From contig SHVW01000005.1 in assembly GCA_009694085.1 (NCBI GenBank), positions 1 to 50,835 on the forward strand: DNA of 50,835 bases, read 5' to 3'. The notes beneath the pieces were generated by a model that was not told the DNA's origin, did not search any database, and worked only from the letters and a program-made list of their open reading frames with translations. The position numbers were made by a program, and so were the translations under genes. This document shows positions 16,924 through 25,551 of the stretch, in pieces. The DNA comes from Alphaproteobacteria bacterium. GTDB taxonomy: Bacteria; Pseudomonadota; Alphaproteobacteria; SHVW01. How positions within the stretch are numbered: the first letter of the stretch is position 1; each line of letters opens with the position of its first letter.

Positions 16924-16946
16924 TGACGATGCCGCGCCACCCCACC

Positions 16947-16969
16947 ATCGAACCGCGTTGCGGTTCGAT
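16947..16969. repeat. Stem-loop in the binding-protein/ATPase gap
   Basis: ATCGAACCGC and GCGGTTCGAT form a perfect 10-bp stem with loop GTT. It is followed at 16970-17000 by a C-run and G-run (CTCCCCC...GGGGTGGGGGGAG) of a kind of intergenic repeat common in proteobacteria. It lies in the 91-base gap between the stop of the binding-protein gene (17015) and the ATPase start (16923). On the minus transcript it could protect the upstream message or partly terminate transcription, as with stem-loops after binding-protein genes elsewhere. Confidence 0.6.
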
Positions 16970-17014
16970 CCTCCCCCGCAAGGGAAGAGGGGTGGGGGGA
17001 GCGATCGAGCGAGC

Positions 17015-18116: not shown

Positions 18117-18154
18117 TTGACGCTAATCCGCATGTTGGTATAAATACCAACATG
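18117..18154 (+). promoter_or_regulatory. Promoter with overlapping operator of the TumE/TumA operon
   Basis: TTGACG (18117-18122) and TATAAA (18139-18144) are 16 bases apart, a near-consensus sigma70-type promoter. The -10 box lies in the middle of a perfect palindrome: CATGTTGGTA (18131-18140), spacer TAAA, then TACCAACATG (18145-18154). An operator across the -10 box is the classical layout for autorepression by the antitoxin. Transcription should begin near 18151-18156. Confidence 0.75.
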
Positions 18155-18187
18155 CGGGCGGCTCTATTACTCAAGGAAAGGCGCGTA

Positions 18188-18436
18188 ATGGGCGAAACGC
18201 GGTTCACTGACGTGACGATCTGGCGGGTGCCGAAGCCGATACCGGGCTGCACGCACCCGTTCAAGTATCGCCTCGCCCTGGTGGTAGATGAATTGTGCGT
18301 CCTTCGTTTCGACAACGAAGCGGGCAAGGGCGATCACAAGCACGTCGGCACAACTCAGGCACCCTATGCATTCGCAACGCTTGAGCAACTGGTCTCGGAC
18401 TTTTGGCGCGACGTGGAGAATTGGAGTTCCGCATGA
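18188..18436 (+). CDS. tumE: TumE-family toxin (DUF6516-like)
   Basis: 82 residues from ATG 18188, which has an AAGGAAAG ribosome site 7 bases ahead. An earlier in-frame ATG at 18152 is rejected because it lies inside the operator palindrome, at or before the expected transcription start. Family-like features: KYRLALVVDELCVLRFDNEAGKGDHKH, then a C-terminal LEQLVSDFWRDVE helix; the GKGDHKH stretch is the part I recognise best. Toxins of this family are paired with a small HTH antitoxin gene, as here with a 4-base overlap (ATGA). Molecular target is not readable from the sequence. GC content is below that of neighbouring operons. Confidence 0.75.
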   Translation: MGETRFTDVTIWRVPKPIPGCTHPFKYRLALVVDELCVLRFDNEAGKGDHKHVGTTQAPYAFATLEQLVSDFWRDVENWSSA

Positions 18437-18774
18437 ATACCGTGACGATCGGGGTCTCACCGCTGACCGAGACCAAGAGCCGGATGAATCGCGCCTTTAG
18501 GGGCGAAAAGCAGAGTGCCTTCATCGGCTTTGGCAGCCTGGAACTGATGTGGAAAATCCTGACGCCAAAACGCTGGGAGATCGTGCGCGCCATAACCGGT
18601 GCCGGACCGCTTGCCATCCGTGCGATCGCGCGTCGCGTCGAACGCGACATCAAATCCGTTCATGGCGATGTGCAAGCGCTGCTCAAGGCCGGCGTGCTCG
18701 ACCGTGCCGACGATGGCCGGATCGTGTTTCCCTATGACGAAGTTCATGTCGATTTCGTGGTGCGGGCGGCGTGA
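18433..18774 (+). CDS. tumA: TumA-type HTH antitoxin
   Basis: 113 residues with a winged-helix DNA-binding region at about 45-95: LTPKRWEIVRAITGAGPLAIRAIARRV, then ERDIKSVHGDVQALLKAGVL and a wing RADDGRIVFPYDEVHVDF. This is the HVO_A0114-like regulator architecture found next to TumE toxins. Toxin-first order with overlap is common to the family. It most likely neutralises TumE and represses the promoter at 18117-18154 through the palindrome around the -10 box. Confidence 0.75.
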   Translation: MNTVTIGVSPLTETKSRMNRAFRGEKQSAFIGFGSLELMWKILTPKRWEIVRAITGAGPLAIRAIARRVERDIKSVHGDVQALLKAGVLDRADDGRIVFPYDEVHVDFVVRAA

Positions 18775-18811: not shown

Positions 18812-20539
18812 TCAGGCCGCCCGGCCCAGCAAACTCTCCCCCGGCTTGACCCGCGTGAACGCGACTTGCCCCATCCCGGTCGCGAACCCGCTATTGGCGA
18901 GTACGATCCGGGTATAGGTCGCCTGTTTCGGGTCGGCCGTCTCGGGGAAATCGCCGCGATAGTGAGAGCCGCAGCTATCGCGGCGCGCCATCGCCGATGC
19001 CTGGATCGCGCGCGAGGTTAGCACTAGGCTTTTCAGATTGAGCCAATCGTGCCAAGTCAGGTTGAAGGCGAGATCTCCGGGGCTGGCCACGCTCAGGCCA
19101 TCGAGGGCCTTGTCGATCTCGGTCAGTTCGGCGGCGGCGCGCGTCAACCCATCCGCATCCCGAATAATGCCGACATCGCGCCACATGACATCCCATAACC
19201 GCTCGCGGATCGCCGGCAGAACGCCGGGATCGGGTGTGCCGCCGATCGGCCGACGCGCACGCGCAACCGCGGCCTTGATCGCCGCCTCGTCCGGCTCCGC
19301 CCAGGAGACACCGGCGTGCATGGCTGCCGCCATGGTCTCGCCAGCAATGCCGCCGAACACGGTGGAGTTGGCGACGCCGTTGCCGCCGAGCCGGTTGGCG
19401 CCGTGGACGCCGCCGGTGTCTTCGCCCGCCGCGTAAAGACCGGGCAGCGCCGTTGTGCCATCGGCGCGGAACTCCAGCCCGCCCATCATGTAATGGGCGG
19501 TCGGGATCACCTCGACCCGGCCGTCAGCCAAGTCGAAACCGCAATCGGCGCAGCGCTCCACCATGCCCTTGAAGTCGCGGCGCACGCGCGCGGCACCGAG
19601 ATGCTTCATTTCGATATAGAGCCCGCCCAGGGGCGAGGTCGGGCCCCGGCGAATCTGTTCGTACATGGCGCGGCTAACGATGTCGCGGGTGGCACGCTCG
19701 CCACGCGGGTCGTAGTCCTGCATGAAGCGCCGGCCGGAGCCGTCGAGCAGATAACCGCCGGCCCCGCGCAAGCCTTCCTCCAGCACGGTCCCGGTCATCC
19801 GCGTATCGGGCCCGGCAAGCAAACCGGTGGGATGGAACTGCACCATCTCCATGTCGCGCAAGGTCAGGCCGGCGCGCAGCGCCATGGCCATGCCGTCGCA
19901 GCTCTTGTCGCCGGAGGGCGTGTGGTAGCGATACATGGTCGGCCCGCCACCGGTCGCCAGCAGCACCGCGCGTGCCTGAACAAAGACAAAGTCGCCGGTG
20001 CGCATGTCGATCAGCACGGCACCCGCAATCCCGCCGCCGTCGCGGCTGCGCACGAGATCGATGGCGCGATGTTCCTCCAACCGCTTGACGTCGCGCGCCC
20101 AGACCTGCTCGGCCAGGCGATTGACGATTTCGATGCCGGTCAAATCGCCCTTGTGGACGGTACGGTCGAAGGTTTGCCCAGCGAAGGCCTTCTGATGCAC
20201 GGTGCCGTCGGGATTGCGGTCGAAGAAGCAGCCGAGTTCGTTTTCCAACTCCCGGATGCGCGTCTGCGCCACCGTCACCAGGGTCCAGGCCAGTTCCTGG
20301 TCGTTGAGCCACTGGCCGCCCTCGATAGTGTCCATGAAATGGCGCTCGACCGAATCCTCCGGCGCGATCGCCACGTTGAAGCCGCCCTGCACCATGCGCG
20401 TGCAACCGCATTTGCCGAGCAGGCCTTTGACCGCAATGGTCACGTCCAGTTCCGGTGCCGCCTGCTTAGCGTGGAGTGCCGCGAACAGGCCGGCACCGCC
20501 GGAGCCGAGGATAAGGATGTCGGTACGGAGCCGCTTCAC
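18812..20539 (-). CDS. Fumarate reductase/succinate dehydrogenase-like flavoprotein, probably non-covalent FAD
   Basis: 575 residues from GTG 20539, which overlaps the fumarase beta stop (GTGA). FAD-binding DILILGSGGAGLFAALHAKQ is at the N-terminus; active-site segments MEMVQFHPTGL, GGVHGANRLGGNGVANSTVFGG and RRDSCGSHYRGDFPE carry the His, Arg and Thr expected for fumarate/succinate chemistry. Where SdhA and FrdA have the FAD-linked histidine (SHTxAAQGG) this protein reads GCTRMVQGG, so the flavin should not be covalently attached. Placed in one operon with both fumarase subunits and an ABC importer. It may work with the SdhB/C/D-like subunits at 29902-31316 or be a separate soluble reductase. 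Confidence 0.85.
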   Translation of the reverse strand: MKRLRTDILILGSGGAGLFAALHAKQAAPELDVTIAVKGLLGKCGCTRMVQGGFNVAIAPEDSVERHFMDTIEGGQWLNDQELAWTLVTVAQTRIRELENELGCFFDRNPDGTVHQKAFAGQTFDRTVHKGDLTGIEIVNRLAEQVWARDVKRLEEHRAIDLVRSRDGGGIAGAVLIDMRTGDFVFVQARAVLLATGGGPTMYRYHTPSGDKSCDGMAMALRAGLTLRDMEMVQFHPTGLLAGPDTRMTGTVLEEGLRGAGGYLLDGSGRRFMQDYDPRGERATRDIVSRAMYEQIRRGPTSPLGGLYIEMKHLGAARVRRDFKGMVERCADCGFDLADGRVEVIPTAHYMMGGLEFRADGTTALPGLYAAGEDTGGVHGANRLGGNGVANSTVFGGIAGETMAAAMHAGVSWAEPDEAAIKAAVARARRPIGGTPDPGVLPAIRERLWDVMWRDVGIIRDADGLTRAAAELTEIDKALDGLSVASPGDLAFNLTWHDWLNLKSLVLTSRAIQASAMARRDSCGSHYRGDFPETADPKQATYTRIVLANSGFATGMGQVAFTRVKPGESLLGRAA

Positions 20540-21150
20540 GATGGCTTCACGCCCATCCCAGCAAGCGCCGCCGCGCGCCGATCTTCCGCCGTCTTCTGCA
20601 CCGCCGTGTAGAGGCTGCCGCCATGGCTGTCCATGGCAACCAGCAGCGGACCGAAACCCTTGACTTGAAATTGCCACAGGCTTTCCGGGTTCAAATCGTC
20701 CATGTCGACATCGACGATCGCCTCGATCCAAGTCGTCTCTAGCGCCGCCGCGCCGCCGATAATGGCGAGATAGGCGCCGCCCAACTCGGCGAAGGCGCGC
20801 GACGTCTCCGCCATCAACCCGCCCTTGCCGATGATCAGGCGCACGCCGTTCCCGGCCATCAACGGCCGGGTGAACCGCTCCATGCGCGCGCTGGTCGTGG
20901 TACCGACGCAGACGGGATGATAGCCCACGGGATATTCGTTCGACACCGGCACCTTGCGCACATTGGGTGCGGTGTGCAGGACCGCATGGCCGGCAAGATC
21001 GAATTTAGTCTTGCGACCGCGGTCGAACATGTGGATCAGCGTGGCGTCGCGAATGCCGTAGAGCGCGCCGTCGAGCGTGACCGTATCGCCGATGACGAGT
21101 GCGCGCGCCTGGGCCTCGGTGATCGGGGTGGGAAGGTCGTGGTGGGTCAT
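20536..21150 (-). CDS. Class I fumarase/L-tartrate dehydratase, beta subunit
   Basis: 204 residues, the size of the separate C-terminal (beta) subunit. Recognisable segments: LTGDTV-like LVIGDTVTLDGALYGIRDATLIHMF, HTAPNVRKVPVSNEYPVGYHPVCVGTTTSARMERF, LIIGKGGLMAETSRAF, DMDDLNPESLWQFQVKGFGPLLVAMDSHGGSLY. It assembles with the alpha subunit at 21972-22847 to hydrate/dehydrate a C4 dicarboxylate (fumarate, tartrate or a near relative). Remarkably, two toxin-antitoxin genes separate it from the alpha gene; its ATG overlaps the HEPN stop by 4 bases, so translation coupling is kept. Confidence 0.88.
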   Translation of the reverse strand: MTHHDLPTPITEAQARALVIGDTVTLDGALYGIRDATLIHMFDRGRKTKFDLAGHAVLHTAPNVRKVPVSNEYPVGYHPVCVGTTTSARMERFTRPLMAGNGVRLIIGKGGLMAETSRAFAELGGAYLAIIGGAAALETTWIEAIVDVDMDDLNPESLWQFQVKGFGPLLVAMDSHGGSLYTAVQKTAEDRRAAALAGMGVKPS

Positions 21151-21581
21151 GGACCGCCAGTATGGCGCTGTTCGATGCGATCGATTGCGCTGCGCAAACT
21201 CTCGATACGAACCAGCATCGAGCGAACATCATCAGCCGACGGGCCATGATACTCAGCGAACCCAGGGTATCGAGACAATACATACCATGAGGTCAGGTCT
21301 GGAATCGCTGTCACCTCATTCGTCAACTCTGGGAATGCCGGTCCCGCCCGCGCGACAAGTGCATCAATGTCATGAATTCGCGGCGGTGAAATGCCCACCG
21401 CGACCAAGAGCGCCTTCAATATTTTTTCGACGGCCTGCTGACAGTGAAAGGCCGCAGGTTCGACGAGCGGCGGATCGCCATCAACGCATCGTCTCACAGC
21501 AGCCAAATCATCGTCGGCCTTAACAAGCCACCGCCGCGCCTCCTTCCATTGCTTGGGAAGCTCTCGACTAGGGTCGCTCAT
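21147..21581 (-). CDS. HEPN domain protein of an MNT-HEPN toxin-antitoxin pair
   Basis: 144 residues from ATG 21581. Core HEPN sequence: RRWLVKADDDLAAVRRCV, AAFHCQQAVEKILKALLVAVGISPPRIHDI and LTSWYVLSRYPGFAEYHG. This RYPG-containing HEPN subfamily is regularly next to a minimal nucleotidyltransferase. The RNase motif R-x4-6-H of HepT toxins is not clearly present (Arg104 and His112 are seven residues apart), so toxicity may differ or be absent. Starts 14 bases inside the nucleotidyltransferase gene. GC content is lower than that of the flanking fumarase genes, which points to later arrival. Confidence 0.8.
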   Translation of the reverse strand: MSDPSRELPKQWKEARRWLVKADDDLAAVRRCVDGDPPLVEPAAFHCQQAVEKILKALLVAVGISPPRIHDIDALVARAGPAFPELTNEVTAIPDLTSWYVLSRYPGFAEYHGPSADDVRSMLVRIESLRSAIDRIEQRHTGGP

Positions 21582-21972
21582 ACACGACGACGCCTTCGTT
21601 AGTCGCGATGTGCGCGAGCGACCCAATGATGTCCTTTCGCTCCTGAAACACGGATTCTCGGCACGCGATAATATCCACCGGATCATGATACCCTCGGCGA
21701 GCCTCGCCAAGTGCGCGCCACGACAGCTTTTCCGCTGGACAGTCGTCATCGAGGATTACGACTAGATCGAGATCGCTGTCTGGTCCAGCCTTTCCGCGCG
21801 CCGCCGATCCGAACAAGATGATCTTACGCGGAGCAAAAAATCCAACGAGCGCATCAAGCAATTTGCGCGGGACCACGGCCTGCTTATCCTTGCCAACGCT
21901 CCGCCCCACGGAAGGACTGCGGTGAAGTCTTCCAACCCGCTTAGGTGCCGCTGTTTTCCGTGCCTGAGCCAT
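21568..21972 (-). CDS. Minimal nucleotidyltransferase (MntA-like) of an MNT-HEPN pair
   Basis: 134 residues. The pol-beta nucleotidyltransferase signature is complete: LFGSAARGKAGPDSDLDLVV, with Gly55-Ser56 and catalytic Asp67 and Asp69, and a third acidic residue at Asp100 (DPVDIIA). In characterised pairs the MNT enzyme AMPylates the HEPN RNase and silences it. The N-terminal 30 residues are a basic extension (KTAAPKRVGRLHRSP) beyond the usual domain. The ATG shares one base with the stop of the fumarase alpha gene (TGATG). Lies inside the C4-acid operon rather than alone. Confidence 0.82.
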   Translation of the reverse strand: MAQARKTAAPKRVGRLHRSPSVGRSVGKDKQAVVPRKLLDALVGFFAPRKIILFGSAARGKAGPDSDLDLVVILDDDCPAEKLSWRALGEARRGYHDPVDIIACRESVFQERKDIIGSLAHIATNEGVVVYERP

Positions 21973-22847
21973 CAGAAACCAATCTTAACACCATCCGGCG
22001 TGAAAATCGCCGTGGCACGCCGCGCCGAATGGCACTGAATGTTGACCGCCACGGGGTTCATGGTGATGTGGGTCGCGGCGATCTCGACATGGACCGCGAA
22101 GGCAGTGGAATCACCGCCCAAACCCTGTGGTCCAATGCCCAGGCTATTGACGGCGGCCGATAGTTGCCGCTCCAGCTTCGCTCCCTCCGAATCGGCGCAA
22201 GCAGATCCCAGCGCGCGGGTCGCCGCCACCTTGGCCAGGTGCGCACACAAATCCGAGGTGCCGCCGACGCCGACGCCGACGATTGTTGGCGGGCAGACCC
22301 GACCCCCCGCTTCCATTACCCGGTCGATCACGAAGGTCTTAATGCCGTCGATCCCGTCGGCAGGAATGCACATCTTGAGGAACGAGCCGTTCTCCGAACC
22401 CGAGCCCTTCGGGATCATCTCGATCGCCAGCTCCTCCGCACGATCGGTGAAATCGATGTTGATGACGGGCACGAGTACGCCACAGGAGCTGTGTTCGTTT
22501 ACTCGGGTGATGGGATGCACGACGGAAGAGCGCAGGGGATATTCCCGGGTCGCCCGTTCGCAGCCGCGCCGGATCGCCTGCTTGAGCGCAACGCCGTCGA
22601 GTTCGACGCCACGACCGATCCTGACGTTGTAGATCGGGATGCCCGTATCCTGGCACAGCAGATTGTCGGTCTTCTCCGCCACCGCAATATTTCGGATCAT
22701 GGTCGCCAGGATCGATTTTCCCGTGGCGTCGGTCTCGCCGGCGTCCAGGCGCTGGAAGCCCTGTTTGATGTCATCGGGCAGCACCTTGAGCGCGCGGATA
22801 TAGAGCAGCTTGGCCGTTTCCTCGATCGCGGCGGGATCGACCCTCAT
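21972..22847 (-). CDS. Class I fumarase/L-tartrate dehydratase, alpha subunit
   Basis: 291 residues from ATG 22847, chosen for its 4-base overlap with the permease stop; an ATG 15 bases further upstream is also open. Family segments: DNLLCQDTGIPIYNVRIG, VVHPITRVNEHSSCGVLVPVINIDF, KGSGSENGSFLKMCIPADGI, VGVGVGGTSDLCAHLAKVAATRALG. Cysteines in LLCQDTG and SSCG and ACADSEG are candidates for the [4Fe-4S] ligands of these oxygen-sensitive hydro-lyases. Catalytic partner of the beta subunit at 20536. Fumarate versus tartrate cannot be decided by reading. Confidence 0.88.
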   Translation of the reverse strand: MRVDPAAIEETAKLLYIRALKVLPDDIKQGFQRLDAGETDATGKSILATMIRNIAVAEKTDNLLCQDTGIPIYNVRIGRGVELDGVALKQAIRRGCERATREYPLRSSVVHPITRVNEHSSCGVLVPVINIDFTDRAEELAIEMIPKGSGSENGSFLKMCIPADGIDGIKTFVIDRVMEAGGRVCPPTIVGVGVGGTSDLCAHLAKVAATRALGSACADSEGAKLERQLSAAVNSLGIGPQGLGGDSTAFAVHVEIAATHITMNPVAVNIQCHSARRATAIFTPDGVKIGF

Positions 22848-23725
22848 CGCTGCATGCCCCATTTGCGCACGGTCCTGATCTCGATGGTGCGGAACACCAC
22901 GCTTTCCACGAGCAAGCCGATGATGATCACCATGACCAGCCCGGCGAAGACATAGGCCGTTTCAAGTTGGTTGCGGTTCTCGAAAATGAACCAGCCCAAT
23001 CCGCCCGAGCGCGAACTGACGCCGAATACCAATTCCGCCGCGATCAGGGTACGCCAAGCGAAGGCCCAGCCGATCTTGAGCCCGGTTAGGATCGAGGGGA
23101 AGGCGGCCGGGATCAGGATATAGGCGACGTAGCGCAAGCCCCGGAGTCCATAATTCTGCCCGGCCATGCGCAGGGTTTCCGACACGGAGAGAAAGCCGCC
23201 ATGGGTGTTGAGCGCCACCGCCCACAGCACGGAATGAATGATGACGAAGATCAGGCTGGGAATGCCCAGGCCGAACCACAGCAGTGCCAAGGGCAGGAGC
23301 GCGATAGCCGGCAGCGGGTTGAACATGGCGGTCAGGGTGGACAGGAAATCGGTGCCCACCCGGGTCGACACGGCAATCGTGGTGAACACGGCGGCAATCG
23401 CGATGCCCGCGCCATAGCCGAGCAGCAAGACGCGGATCGAGGTCCACACCCGCTCCAGCAACGGCCCCTTGATCGAGGCATCCCATAGCGCCGTCATGGT
23501 TTCGTCGAAGGTAGGGAACATCAGCGGATTGTCCAGCCAGCTCGCATAGATCTGCCAGGCCACGGCGAGCACGAGCAAGATGAACAGGCGGCGCACCAGC
23601 GTGATGTTCGAGATGCGCTCCCAGGCCGAGAGCGGGCGCGCAACGTCGCCGATCTGGCCGGCCTCGCCAGGCCGCACCTCGAATTCCGGGCGCACCGGCG
23701 GCAAGCGCGGCTCAGCTCCGGCCAT
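22844..23725 (-). CDS. ABC transporter permease, NitT/TauT type
   Basis: 293 residues from ATG 23725 (AAGAGGAG ribosome site), overlapping the ATPase stop by 14 bases; a longer reading to 23815 lies wholly in the ATPase gene and is less likely. Six hydrophobic segments follow a polar N-terminus. The ATPase-coupling EAA loop reads MAGQNYGLRGLRYVAYILIPAAFPSILTGLKIGWAFAWRTLIAAEL, the typical form for nitrate, taurine, aliphatic sulfonate and aromatic-acid importers. Coupled to the fumarase alpha gene, which suggests the imported compound feeds that enzyme. Confidence 0.9.
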   Translation of the reverse strand: MAGAEPRLPPVRPEFEVRPGEAGQIGDVARPLSAWERISNITLVRRLFILLVLAVAWQIYASWLDNPLMFPTFDETMTALWDASIKGPLLERVWTSIRVLLLGYGAGIAIAAVFTTIAVSTRVGTDFLSTLTAMFNPLPAIALLPLALLWFGLGIPSLIFVIIHSVLWAVALNTHGGFLSVSETLRMAGQNYGLRGLRYVAYILIPAAFPSILTGLKIGWAFAWRTLIAAELVFGVSSRSGGLGWFIFENRNQLETAYVFAGLVMVIIIGLLVESVVFRTIEIRTVRKWGMQR

Positions 23726-24548
23726 GGAGGCGCTCCTCTTCAATGCGCTCGGCGAACAGCATGTTGTGAATGCGGTTGTGCAGCGCCTGGAACTCGCCGC
23801 CGCCCTGCTCGTCATGGCTGAACTGGTGAGCGTTGAGTTCCGCCTTGACCTGGCCGGGATGGGGCGACATGACCAGGATGCGCGAGCCGACGATGATCGC
23901 CTCCTCGATCGAATGCGTCACGAACAGCATGGTGAAGCGGACATCATCCCAGAGCTGGAGCAGCTCTTCCTGCATCTTGCGCCGGGTCAAGGCGTCGAGC
24001 GCGGCGAACGGCTCGTCCATCAGCAGGATATCCGCCTCCATCGCCATGGCGCGCGCGATTGCCACGCGCTGCTTCATGCCGCCGGATAGCATGTGCGGAT
24101 AGGCATCGGCGAACTTGGTCAGATTGACCTTGTCGATATAGGCCCACGCTCGCTCCGCCGCCTCCGCCCGGTTGCATCTTCCGCTGACCAGCATGGGGAA
24201 CAGGATGTTCTCGCGCACGGTTTTCCAGGGCAGCAGTTGGTCGAATTCCTGGAACACCATCATGCGATCCGGCCCGGGCCGCTCGATCGTCTGGCCCTTC
24301 AGGCGGATCGTGCCCTCGACAGGTGCCATGAACCCGCCCACGCCCTTAAGCAGGGTGGACTTGCCGCAGCCGGACGGCCCCAACAGCACGAAGCGGTCGG
24401 AGGGATGGACCTGAAAACTGACGCGATAGGTCGCCGTGACCAGATGGTCCCGCGTCTTGTACTGGAGCGTGACGCCGTCGACCGCCAGCAGGGCCGGCGC
24501 GTGCTCGTCCACCATCTCTGCGTTAGCTGCCGGCAACGCCGTGGACAT
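23712..24548 (-). CDS. ABC transporter ATP-binding protein, NitT/TauT type
   Basis: 278 residues. Walker A LLGPSGCGKSTLLKGVGGF, Q-loop MMVFQEFDQLLPWKTVREN, signature LSGGMKQRVAIARAMAM, Walker B ILLMDEPFAALDALTRR and the switch histidine in LFVTHSIEEA are all present. GFMAPVEGTIRLKGQTIERPGPDRM is the style of TauB/SsuB/NrtD ATPases. The start lies 26 bases inside the binding-protein gene, so ATG 24548 assumes overlap; no better internal start is seen before the conserved region. Confidence 0.9.
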   Translation of the reverse strand: MSTALPAANAEMVDEHAPALLAVDGVTLQYKTRDHLVTATYRVSFQVHPSDRFVLLGPSGCGKSTLLKGVGGFMAPVEGTIRLKGQTIERPGPDRMMVFQEFDQLLPWKTVRENILFPMLVSGRCNRAEAAERAWAYIDKVNLTKFADAYPHMLSGGMKQRVAIARAMAMEADILLMDEPFAALDALTRRKMQEELLQLWDDVRFTMLFVTHSIEEAIIVGSRILVMSPHPGQVKAELNAHQFSHDEQGGGEFQALHNRIHNMLFAERIEEERLHGRS

Positions 24549-25551
24549 CGGGAAAATAATAGTCTTTCCAGGTCTCGGGCTTGTTACGCAGCGAACCGAC
24601 CTTGTTCATGAAATTTGCGTATTTGATGGTGTTGAGCGGCACGATGGTGTGCCGCAGTTCCGGGCTTTCCACCATCCGGTTGATGAATTCGACCGCCAGC
24701 TTCGATTGTTCCTCCTCGATATAGATTTTGACCGCGTCGGCGCGCCGCTTCTGGATAAAATCATGGGCCTCGACCAGCGCGTCGAACACGGCCTTGTAGC
24801 TGCGCGGGTTCTCGTCGCGGAACTTGGCGGTGGTGTAGGCGGAGTTGAAGGTGACGGGGCCGCCCAACACCTCGAAGCTGCCGATCACCTTATGCGCCTT
24901 GCCCGTTTCGATCTGCTGGAACTGAAAGGGCGGGCTGCTGAAATGGGCGGTGATCTCCGACCGGCCCGACAGCATGGCCGCCGTCGCATCCGGGTGGGCC
25001 ATCGACACGGTCAAATGATCCAGCTTGCCATGCTGGCCCGGGCCGAAAGCCGCCTCGCATGCCATTTGCAACGTGACCGCCTGGATCGACACCTTGACCG
25101 CGGGCAGCGCGATGCGGTCCTTGTCGGTAAAATCCTTGATCGACTTGACTGCGGGATTGACTGTGTTGAGATAGAGCGAGGTCGCATCGAAGCAGCCGAT
25201 GCCGCGCACATTGGCGTTGCCCCTGGTCTTGTCCCAGATGGTCAGCAGCGGCCCGATGCCGCCGGACACCACATGCATGCTGCCCGAGAGCAGCGCATCA
25301 TTGGCCGCCGCGCCGCCCGTGGTCTTGAGCCATTCGACCTTATTGTTGGGCAGACCGGCGCGCGCCAGATGCTTCTCGATCAGCTTCTCGGCCTTCATCA
25401 CATGGAGCGGCGTGTAGGCCAGGCCGAATTGCGGCGCGAGCACGATGGTGCCGACCTCCGGTTTCGACTGGGCAACGGCCAGGCGCGGCATAGTGCCGGC
25501 AGCGGCAAGCCCGGCCAGAACGGCGCGGCGCGATGGACGGTGTGTGGTCAT
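24523..25551 (-). CDS. ABC transporter substrate-binding protein, NitT/TauT type
   Basis: 342 residues. A twin-arginine-like leader (THRPSRRAVLAGLAAAGTMPRLAVAQS) suggests Tat or Sec export with cleavage near residue 28. The mature part has the NMT1/TauA-like fold sequence: FGLAYTPLHVMKAEKLIEKHLARAGLP, LLSGSMHVVSGGIGPLLTIWDK, GRSEITAHFSSPPFQFQQIE. GGGGAGGC before ATG 25551 is a strong ribosome site. First gene of the eight-gene minus operon ending with the flavoprotein. Ligand unknown; an organic C4 or related acid is inferred from the enzymes downstream, while sulfonates or nitrate are the classical ligands of the family. Confidence 0.88.
   Translation of the reverse strand: MTTHRPSRRAVLAGLAAAGTMPRLAVAQSKPEVGTIVLAPQFGLAYTPLHVMKAEKLIEKHLARAGLPNNKVEWLKTTGGAAANDALLSGSMHVVSGGIGPLLTIWDKTRGNANVRGIGCFDATSLYLNTVNPAVKSIKDFTDKDRIALPAVKVSIQAVTLQMACEAAFGPGQHGKLDHLTVSMAHPDATAAMLSGRSEITAHFSSPPFQFQQIETGKAHKVIGSFEVLGGPVTFNSAYTTAKFRDENPRSYKAVFDALVEAHDFIQKRRADAVKIYIEEEQSKLAVEFINRMVESPELRHTIVPLNTIKYANFMNKVGSLRNKPETWKDYYFPDVHGVAGS

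Follow-up and report, generated by a model that had tools for sequence, protein, structure and literature searches.

A predicted MNT-HEPN toxin-antitoxin pair between the subunit genes of a split hydro-lyase, probably a passenger, and its parallels in unrelated operons

How does a toxin-antitoxin (TA) pair come to lie between the genes for the two subunits of a single enzyme, and is it there to serve that enzyme? The question is raised by a stretch of 50,835 nucleotides from an alphaproteobacterium (contig SHVW01000005.1 of assembly GCA_009694085.1, which comprises 141 contigs and is 70.6% complete), referred to here as the window, in which a predicted minimal nucleotidyltransferase (MNT) antitoxin gene and a predicted HEPN toxin gene separate alpha and beta, the subunit genes of a split class I fumarase/TtdA-type [Fe-S] hydro-lyase. 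A preliminary description of the window proposed either that the pair exploits operon expression for its maintenance or that it has become tied to the oxygen- or iron-sensitive enzyme. Our analysis favors a different emphasis: with a probability of roughly 0.78, we consider this type VII-like pair to be a passenger, whether selfish or defensive, that was acquired horizontally and became fixed between alpha and beta, and such nesting, in which the overlaps between genes are kept, to recur in other operons.

Identity of the nested pair

The operon runs on the minus strand in the order SsuA-like binding protein, ATP-binding cassette (ABC) ATPase, permease, alpha, MNT, HEPN, beta and flavin adenine dinucleotide (FAD) flavoprotein. 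Re-examination of the open reading frames (ORFs), coordinates and overlaps bore out the earlier report of an intact pair between alpha (21972-22847) and beta (20536-21150). Both the MNT and HEPN ORFs are complete, and every junction from the permease to the FAD gene is overlapping. The shared bases are ATGA at permease/alpha, TGATG at alpha/MNT, ATGA at HEPN/beta and GTGA at beta/FAD, and the MNT and HEPN genes have 14 bases in common. The inserted genes are also lower in GC, as had been described, with values at third codon positions (GC3) of 0.60 for MNT and 0.57 for HEPN compared to 0.77-0.87 for the remaining genes of the operon.

The pair resembles the HEPN/MNT (HepT-MntA) type VII systems (PMC7641770, PMC11586414) in that the MNT gene lies upstream of the HEPN gene and overlaps it, the HEPN protein has 144 aa, and the MNT carries the nucleotidyltransferase motif GSX10DXD, which we read in the sequence as FGSAARGKAGPDSDLDL; this type VII hallmark (GSAARGKAGPDSDLD) is found alongside a PF01909 match (E=3e-11). 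It differs from HepT-MntA in that the MNT reaches 37.5 bits against the 60-bit cut-off of the NCBIfam MntA_antitoxin model, and in that the HEPN, whose activity is predicted only, falls in the PF05168 (HEPN-T) branch (74.3 bits against a gathering score of 22) and lacks RX4HXY. In an alignment of 39 PF05168 sequences, R-x4-6-H (RX4HXY) was found at the family position neither in the window HEPN nor in its relatives, and we therefore place the pair in the PF05168 branch and not in the HepT subtype. The remark in the preliminary description that the HEPN has no clear R-x4-6-H motif thus stands, but the absence is not specific to this protein. The sole similar string in the window HEPN, RIEQRH, occupies residues 135-140 of the C-terminal tail. 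The protein retains the D25, FHxQQAxEK, HD and RYP motifs of the alignment, in which D25, H46, Q48, Q49, E52, K53, K56, H70, R104 and Y105 are conserved in at least 35 of the 39 sequences, and RYP is shared by the solved HEPN relative 1wol. With the HEPN-T family (PMC3710099) and its solved members 1wol (HEPN) and 1wot (MNT), the window pair has in common the Pfam family, the RYP region and the MNT-first order, whereas its genomic place, inside the operon of a two-subunit enzyme, is different. PADLOC returned no match for the HEPN and only PDC-S09 as the best matches for the MNT, which added nothing specific.

The missing motif could be taken to mean that the two proteins are a domesticated nucleotidyltransferase and its HEPN substrate-binding partner, no longer acting as a TA system, as has been proposed for HEPN domains fused to nucleotidyltransferases (PMC3710099). 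Here, however, MNT and HEPN are separate, unfused genes, and since R-x4-6-H is missing at its typical position across the sampled family, its loss is no sign of domestication. Replacement of the motif histidine is frequent in the PF05168 branch and affects several of its members (Table 1 of PMC3710099), and a genome-scale screen nonetheless identified HEPN proteins without the motif as toxins (PMC3710099). Moreover, all family-invariant residues are retained, including the QxxE within FHCQQAVEK, which may be equivalent to the Q/E metal site proposed as the active site of a Legionella HEPN (PMC11586414). On balance, we regard domestication as unlikely.

The alpha-beta junction in related genomes

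A scan of species genomes provided 80 alpha loci, of which 78 had beta present. The earlier suggestion that relatives lacking the insert could be compared with the window proved workable, as the gap between alpha and beta was at most 30 bp in 49 of these 78 loci, 30-100 bp in 2 and more than 100 bp in 27; in G045, for instance, the two genes are joined by TGACATG with no insert. A different genome set contributed five additional loci, some of them probably from the same species, and all were tight. The enzyme thus shares with the split class I fumarases and L(+)-tartrate dehydratase (TtdA-TtdB) its separate alpha and beta genes of PF05681 and PF05683, but these adjoin in most relatives, whereas in the window they are parted by two genes. 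The junction contains these TA genes neither in G001, the sole congener compared, nor in any further orthologous locus that we examined. The empty orthologous junctions in most relatives, together with the foreign composition of the pair, indicate that MNT-HEPN is an insertion.

Fragmentation of the source assembly into 141 contigs and its 70.6% completeness raise the question of whether an unrelated MNT-HEPN contig was joined into the operon by an assembly or binning error. This is highly improbable, given that the borders of the pair are codon-exact overlaps with alpha and beta, that G001 has the same gene order, with identities of 90% for alpha and 83% for beta on the flanks, and that equivalent nests are present in other genomes, including one assembly of 3 contigs. 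Alpha is 83% identical in both G045 and G088.

A second MNT-HEPN pair, 57% / 54% identical to the first and with a frameshifted HEPN, is found in the same assembly (genome G000, contig C87:31860-32560; L117:6861-7560), and a HEPN search of G001, which is 94% complete, gave no match. The family was thus either gained by the window lineage or lost by the congener. The second pair sits behind restriction-endonuclease-like ORFs (no Pfam match). At the borders of the window pair, no transposon ends or integrase were evident on reading the sequence, although no systematic search was made.

Other lineages carry unrelated material at this junction, which accounts for the 27 gaps of more than 100 bp. 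In G088 it contains an opposite-strand XRE/HTH (helix-turn-helix) antitoxin-like gene, in 19 loci of Acetobacteraceae and kin it contains GNAT acetyltransferases, and at L058:4876-8134 it contains an MlaA lipoprotein, an ABC ATPase and an ABC-2 permease. Single loci contain a metallo-beta-lactamase (L110), a 119-aa protein (L078) and a 508-aa protein (L108, the near-identical sister of which, L111, is empty), while the 5′ end of beta is partly duplicated ahead of beta in L071 and L073 (Rubritepida and Roseococcus). The junction of G001 consists of 153 bp with a palindromic repeat that is dispersed in its genome (23 matches, mostly partial). A copy of this repeat also lies at positions 16945-16992 of the window. 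L058 also has part of the beta 5′ end repeated ahead of the real beta. In L041 (4876-8873), beta and the FAD gene are missing within 4 kb downstream of alpha and are both present in the near-identical sisters L040 and L045, which reflects either a rearrangement or an assembly error.

With the window pair included, there are nine kinds of insert at the alpha-beta junction, and hence at least nine events by content alone; on a quick alpha tree, in which many branches are weak, the insert state changes 19 times. Such numbers would be expected if the junction were a hot spot that captures any gene, with MNT-HEPN as one catch, an explanation that is compatible with the pair being a passenger. As a control, we measured the beta-FAD junction in the same loci and found gaps of more than 100 bp in 24/75, against 27/78 for alpha-beta. 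Since beta-FAD is equally loose, we rejected the idea of a hot spot confined to alpha-beta; the whole operon tolerates passengers, and we consider a special capturing property of the junction to be doubtful.

Parallel nests in other operons

We next asked where such pairs lie elsewhere, using a census of 67 sampled MNT-HEPN pairs. One of them (L126) was positioned directly behind an apparent tRNA 3′ end. Tight same-strand neighbors on both sides were found for four pairs, although for one of them (L136) the upstream ORF is doubtful. Another of the four, in G536, separates pyrG from kdsA, and its three junctions overlap by 8, 4 and 4 bases. Across 15 pyrG-kdsA loci of that genus, MNT-HEPN is present in 3 and the junction is empty in 11, with a 4-base ATGA overlap in ten of the empty loci and TAATG in one. 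The remaining locus (G762, L164) contains a DUF4160-DUF2442 pair, a domain combination listed as the dhiTA type II TA system (PMC8198452), and has the same outer overlaps (-8 and -4) as the MNT-HEPN loci. In G466 (L218) and G541 (L224), type III-B CRISPR operons have MNT-HEPN between cmr2 and cmr3, two genes that overlap by ATGA in six related, empty loci; the pairs in these two genomes are merely 43/34% identical (Cmr3, 59%).

In both the pyrG-kdsA and the cmr2-cmr3 nests, the end of the upstream gene still overlaps an ATG, at which the first of the two TA genes now starts; at pyrG-kdsA and in G466, an ATGA or GTGA overlap then provides the restart for the downstream gene. Nonsynonymous change is far below synonymous change for both TA genes at pyrG-kdsA, indicating that they have been kept functional. 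Their proportion of synonymous differences (pS), at 0.68-0.82, exceeds the 0.40-0.49 of the flanking genes, which suggests that the pairs may have been replaced more than once and makes a single vertical inheritance doubtful. Insertion may have been directed to a start codon, but selection for keeping the overlaps would produce the same picture.

These parallels bear directly on the proposal that the window pair has been co-opted to control the [Fe-S] hydro-lyase or to react to it, e.g. through nucleotidylation of a subunit or cutting of the operon mRNA upon enzyme failure. Its position between the subunit genes with tight overlaps would fit such a role, as would its intact frames, given that the related second pair carries a frameshift. 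However, the pair is missing from all other orthologous loci examined, unrelated cargo occupies the same junction in other lineages, and members of the same family nest in pyrG-kdsA and cmr2-cmr3. The tie to the enzyme that the preliminary description had suggested is, in our view, very unlikely.

Host operon, expression and persistence

The genes of the operon, and of a second TA pair beside it, are listed in Table 1. The alpha (PF05681) and beta (PF05683) ORFs are unbroken and lie in one operon in the order seen in relatives. Their scores against the TtdA and TtdB equivalog models fall below the cut-offs, and we assign the enzyme to this type but to no particular substrate. Three alpha residues, C65, C185 and C272, are invariant in the four orthologues compared and, by analogy with the family, are candidate ligands of the cluster.

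Table 1. Predicted genes of the hydro-lyase operon and the adjacent TA pair in the window
Feature	Coordinates	Strand	Evidence
SsuA/NMT1-type ABC substrate-binding protein, operon gene 1	24523..25551	-	PF13379 E=8e-6, TIGR01728 5e-16
ABC transporter ATPase	23712..24548	-	PF00005 E=1e-31
ABC transporter permease; ATGA overlap with alpha	22844..23815	-	PF00528 E=2e-13, sequence
Alpha subunit, split class I fumarase/TtdA-type [Fe-S] hydro-lyase	21972..22847	-	PF05681 E=4e-86, TIGR00722 3e-85
MNT, predicted antitoxin	21568..21972	-	PF01909 E=3e-11; weak NF047752 MntA match, below cut-off
HEPN (HEPN-T, PF05168), predicted toxin; stop inside ATGA of beta start	21147..21581	-	PF05168 E=1e-20
Beta subunit of hydro-lyase; start codon overlaps HEPN stop	20536..21150	-	PF05683 E=6e-28, NF006082/TIGR00723
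FAD-dependent fumarate reductase/succinate dehydrogenase-type flavoprotein, last operon gene	18812..20539	-	PF00890 E=3e-76, PF02910
TumE-family toxin	18152..18436	+	PF20126 E=1e-13
HVO_A0114-type HTH protein, predicted partner antitoxin; ATGA overlap with TumE	18433..18774	+	PF25212 E=1e-28, sequence

The second TA pair (18152-18774, plus strand) is TumE/TumA-like, with a gene for a TumE domain protein that overlaps one for an HVO_A0114 HTH protein, and lies at the 3′ edge of the operon, convergent with it; 37 bp separate the pair from the FAD gene end. It was not found near the equivalent position in G001. As both TA pairs are absent in the congener, either both joined the operon region after the species split or they were lost from G001.

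The tight overlaps had been interpreted as a working translational relay, an interpretation that we can uphold in part. The frames and overlaps are unbroken, and the stop codon of HEPN is the TGA within the ATGA of beta, with HEPN extending a few residues beyond its nearest homologues. The start of MNT is less certain. The protein is ~30 aa longer at its N-terminus than six homologues, which begin near window residue 33, and an in-frame GTG at 21876 inside the gene is preceded by AAGGA; the ATG in TGATG may therefore not be the native start. Alpha and beta overlap as TGATG in several empty relatives (e.g. L053, L067 and L087), and to judge from these few bases, the ATG at the alpha/MNT border may be a relic of a former beta start. 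The 14-base MNT/HEPN overlap, which is exact in 28 of the 67 pairs sampled, is the commonest spacing of the family and hence uninformative about this operon.

We propose that a complete MNT-HEPN cassette would have entered the lineage horizontally and become fixed at the alpha/beta boundary. It would presumably be transcribed from the promoter of the host operon; a scan of the minus strand upstream of MNT, which is weak evidence, found no sigma-70-like site that could serve as a promoter of its own. MNT would be translated before HEPN, and translation of beta would restart at the ATGA in which HEPN stops and beta starts. HEPN is predicted to hold back growth, probably through cleavage of RNA, and MNT to silence HEPN by nucleotidylation; the pair would have no functional link to the hydro-lyase. 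It is possible that the pair exploits operon expression for its maintenance, and the location may also help it to persist.

Several points weigh against a passenger cassette of this kind. Nesting is not the usual context of MNT-HEPN pairs, since just 4/67 are tight on both sides and L136 is doubtful among them. Given the N-terminal extension of MNT and its uncertain start, alpha and MNT may not be coupled. The exact arrangement is known from a single genome with a fragmented assembly, and toxicity of the HEPN is a prediction.

That horizontally acquired blocks of genes can join working operons is a general idea, and the present case is alike in this respect. It differs in that a whole TA module is involved, with overlaps on both sides, and in that the arrangement recurs in three unrelated operons; we found no matching report of TA pairs nested in operons in the open-access library searched. 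A tentative extension, which we think possible but would not favor at present, is that MNT-HEPN and further small TA pairs use overlapping junctions in essential or multi-subunit operons as safe harbors. They would insert at the start codon of the downstream gene, take over its ATG to start their own first gene and recreate an ATGA, so that an inexact deletion would damage a needed neighbor, and TA families might then replace each other at the same site, as MNT-HEPN and DUF4160-DUF2442 with their shared -8 and -4 overlaps may have done at pyrG-kdsA.

The persistence of chromosomal TA systems without obvious benefit is a long-standing question. Operon-internal pairs that overlap their neighbors on both sides, where close relatives have an empty junction, provide a natural before-and-after set. 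It can now be tested directly whether, as predicted, a pair inside an operon is lost less easily than one that stands alone. The findings also caution annotators that operon membership does not give function. The more interesting outcome is the general pattern, in which TA pairs nest in unrelated operons with the overlaps retained and the homologous sites of other genomes are empty.

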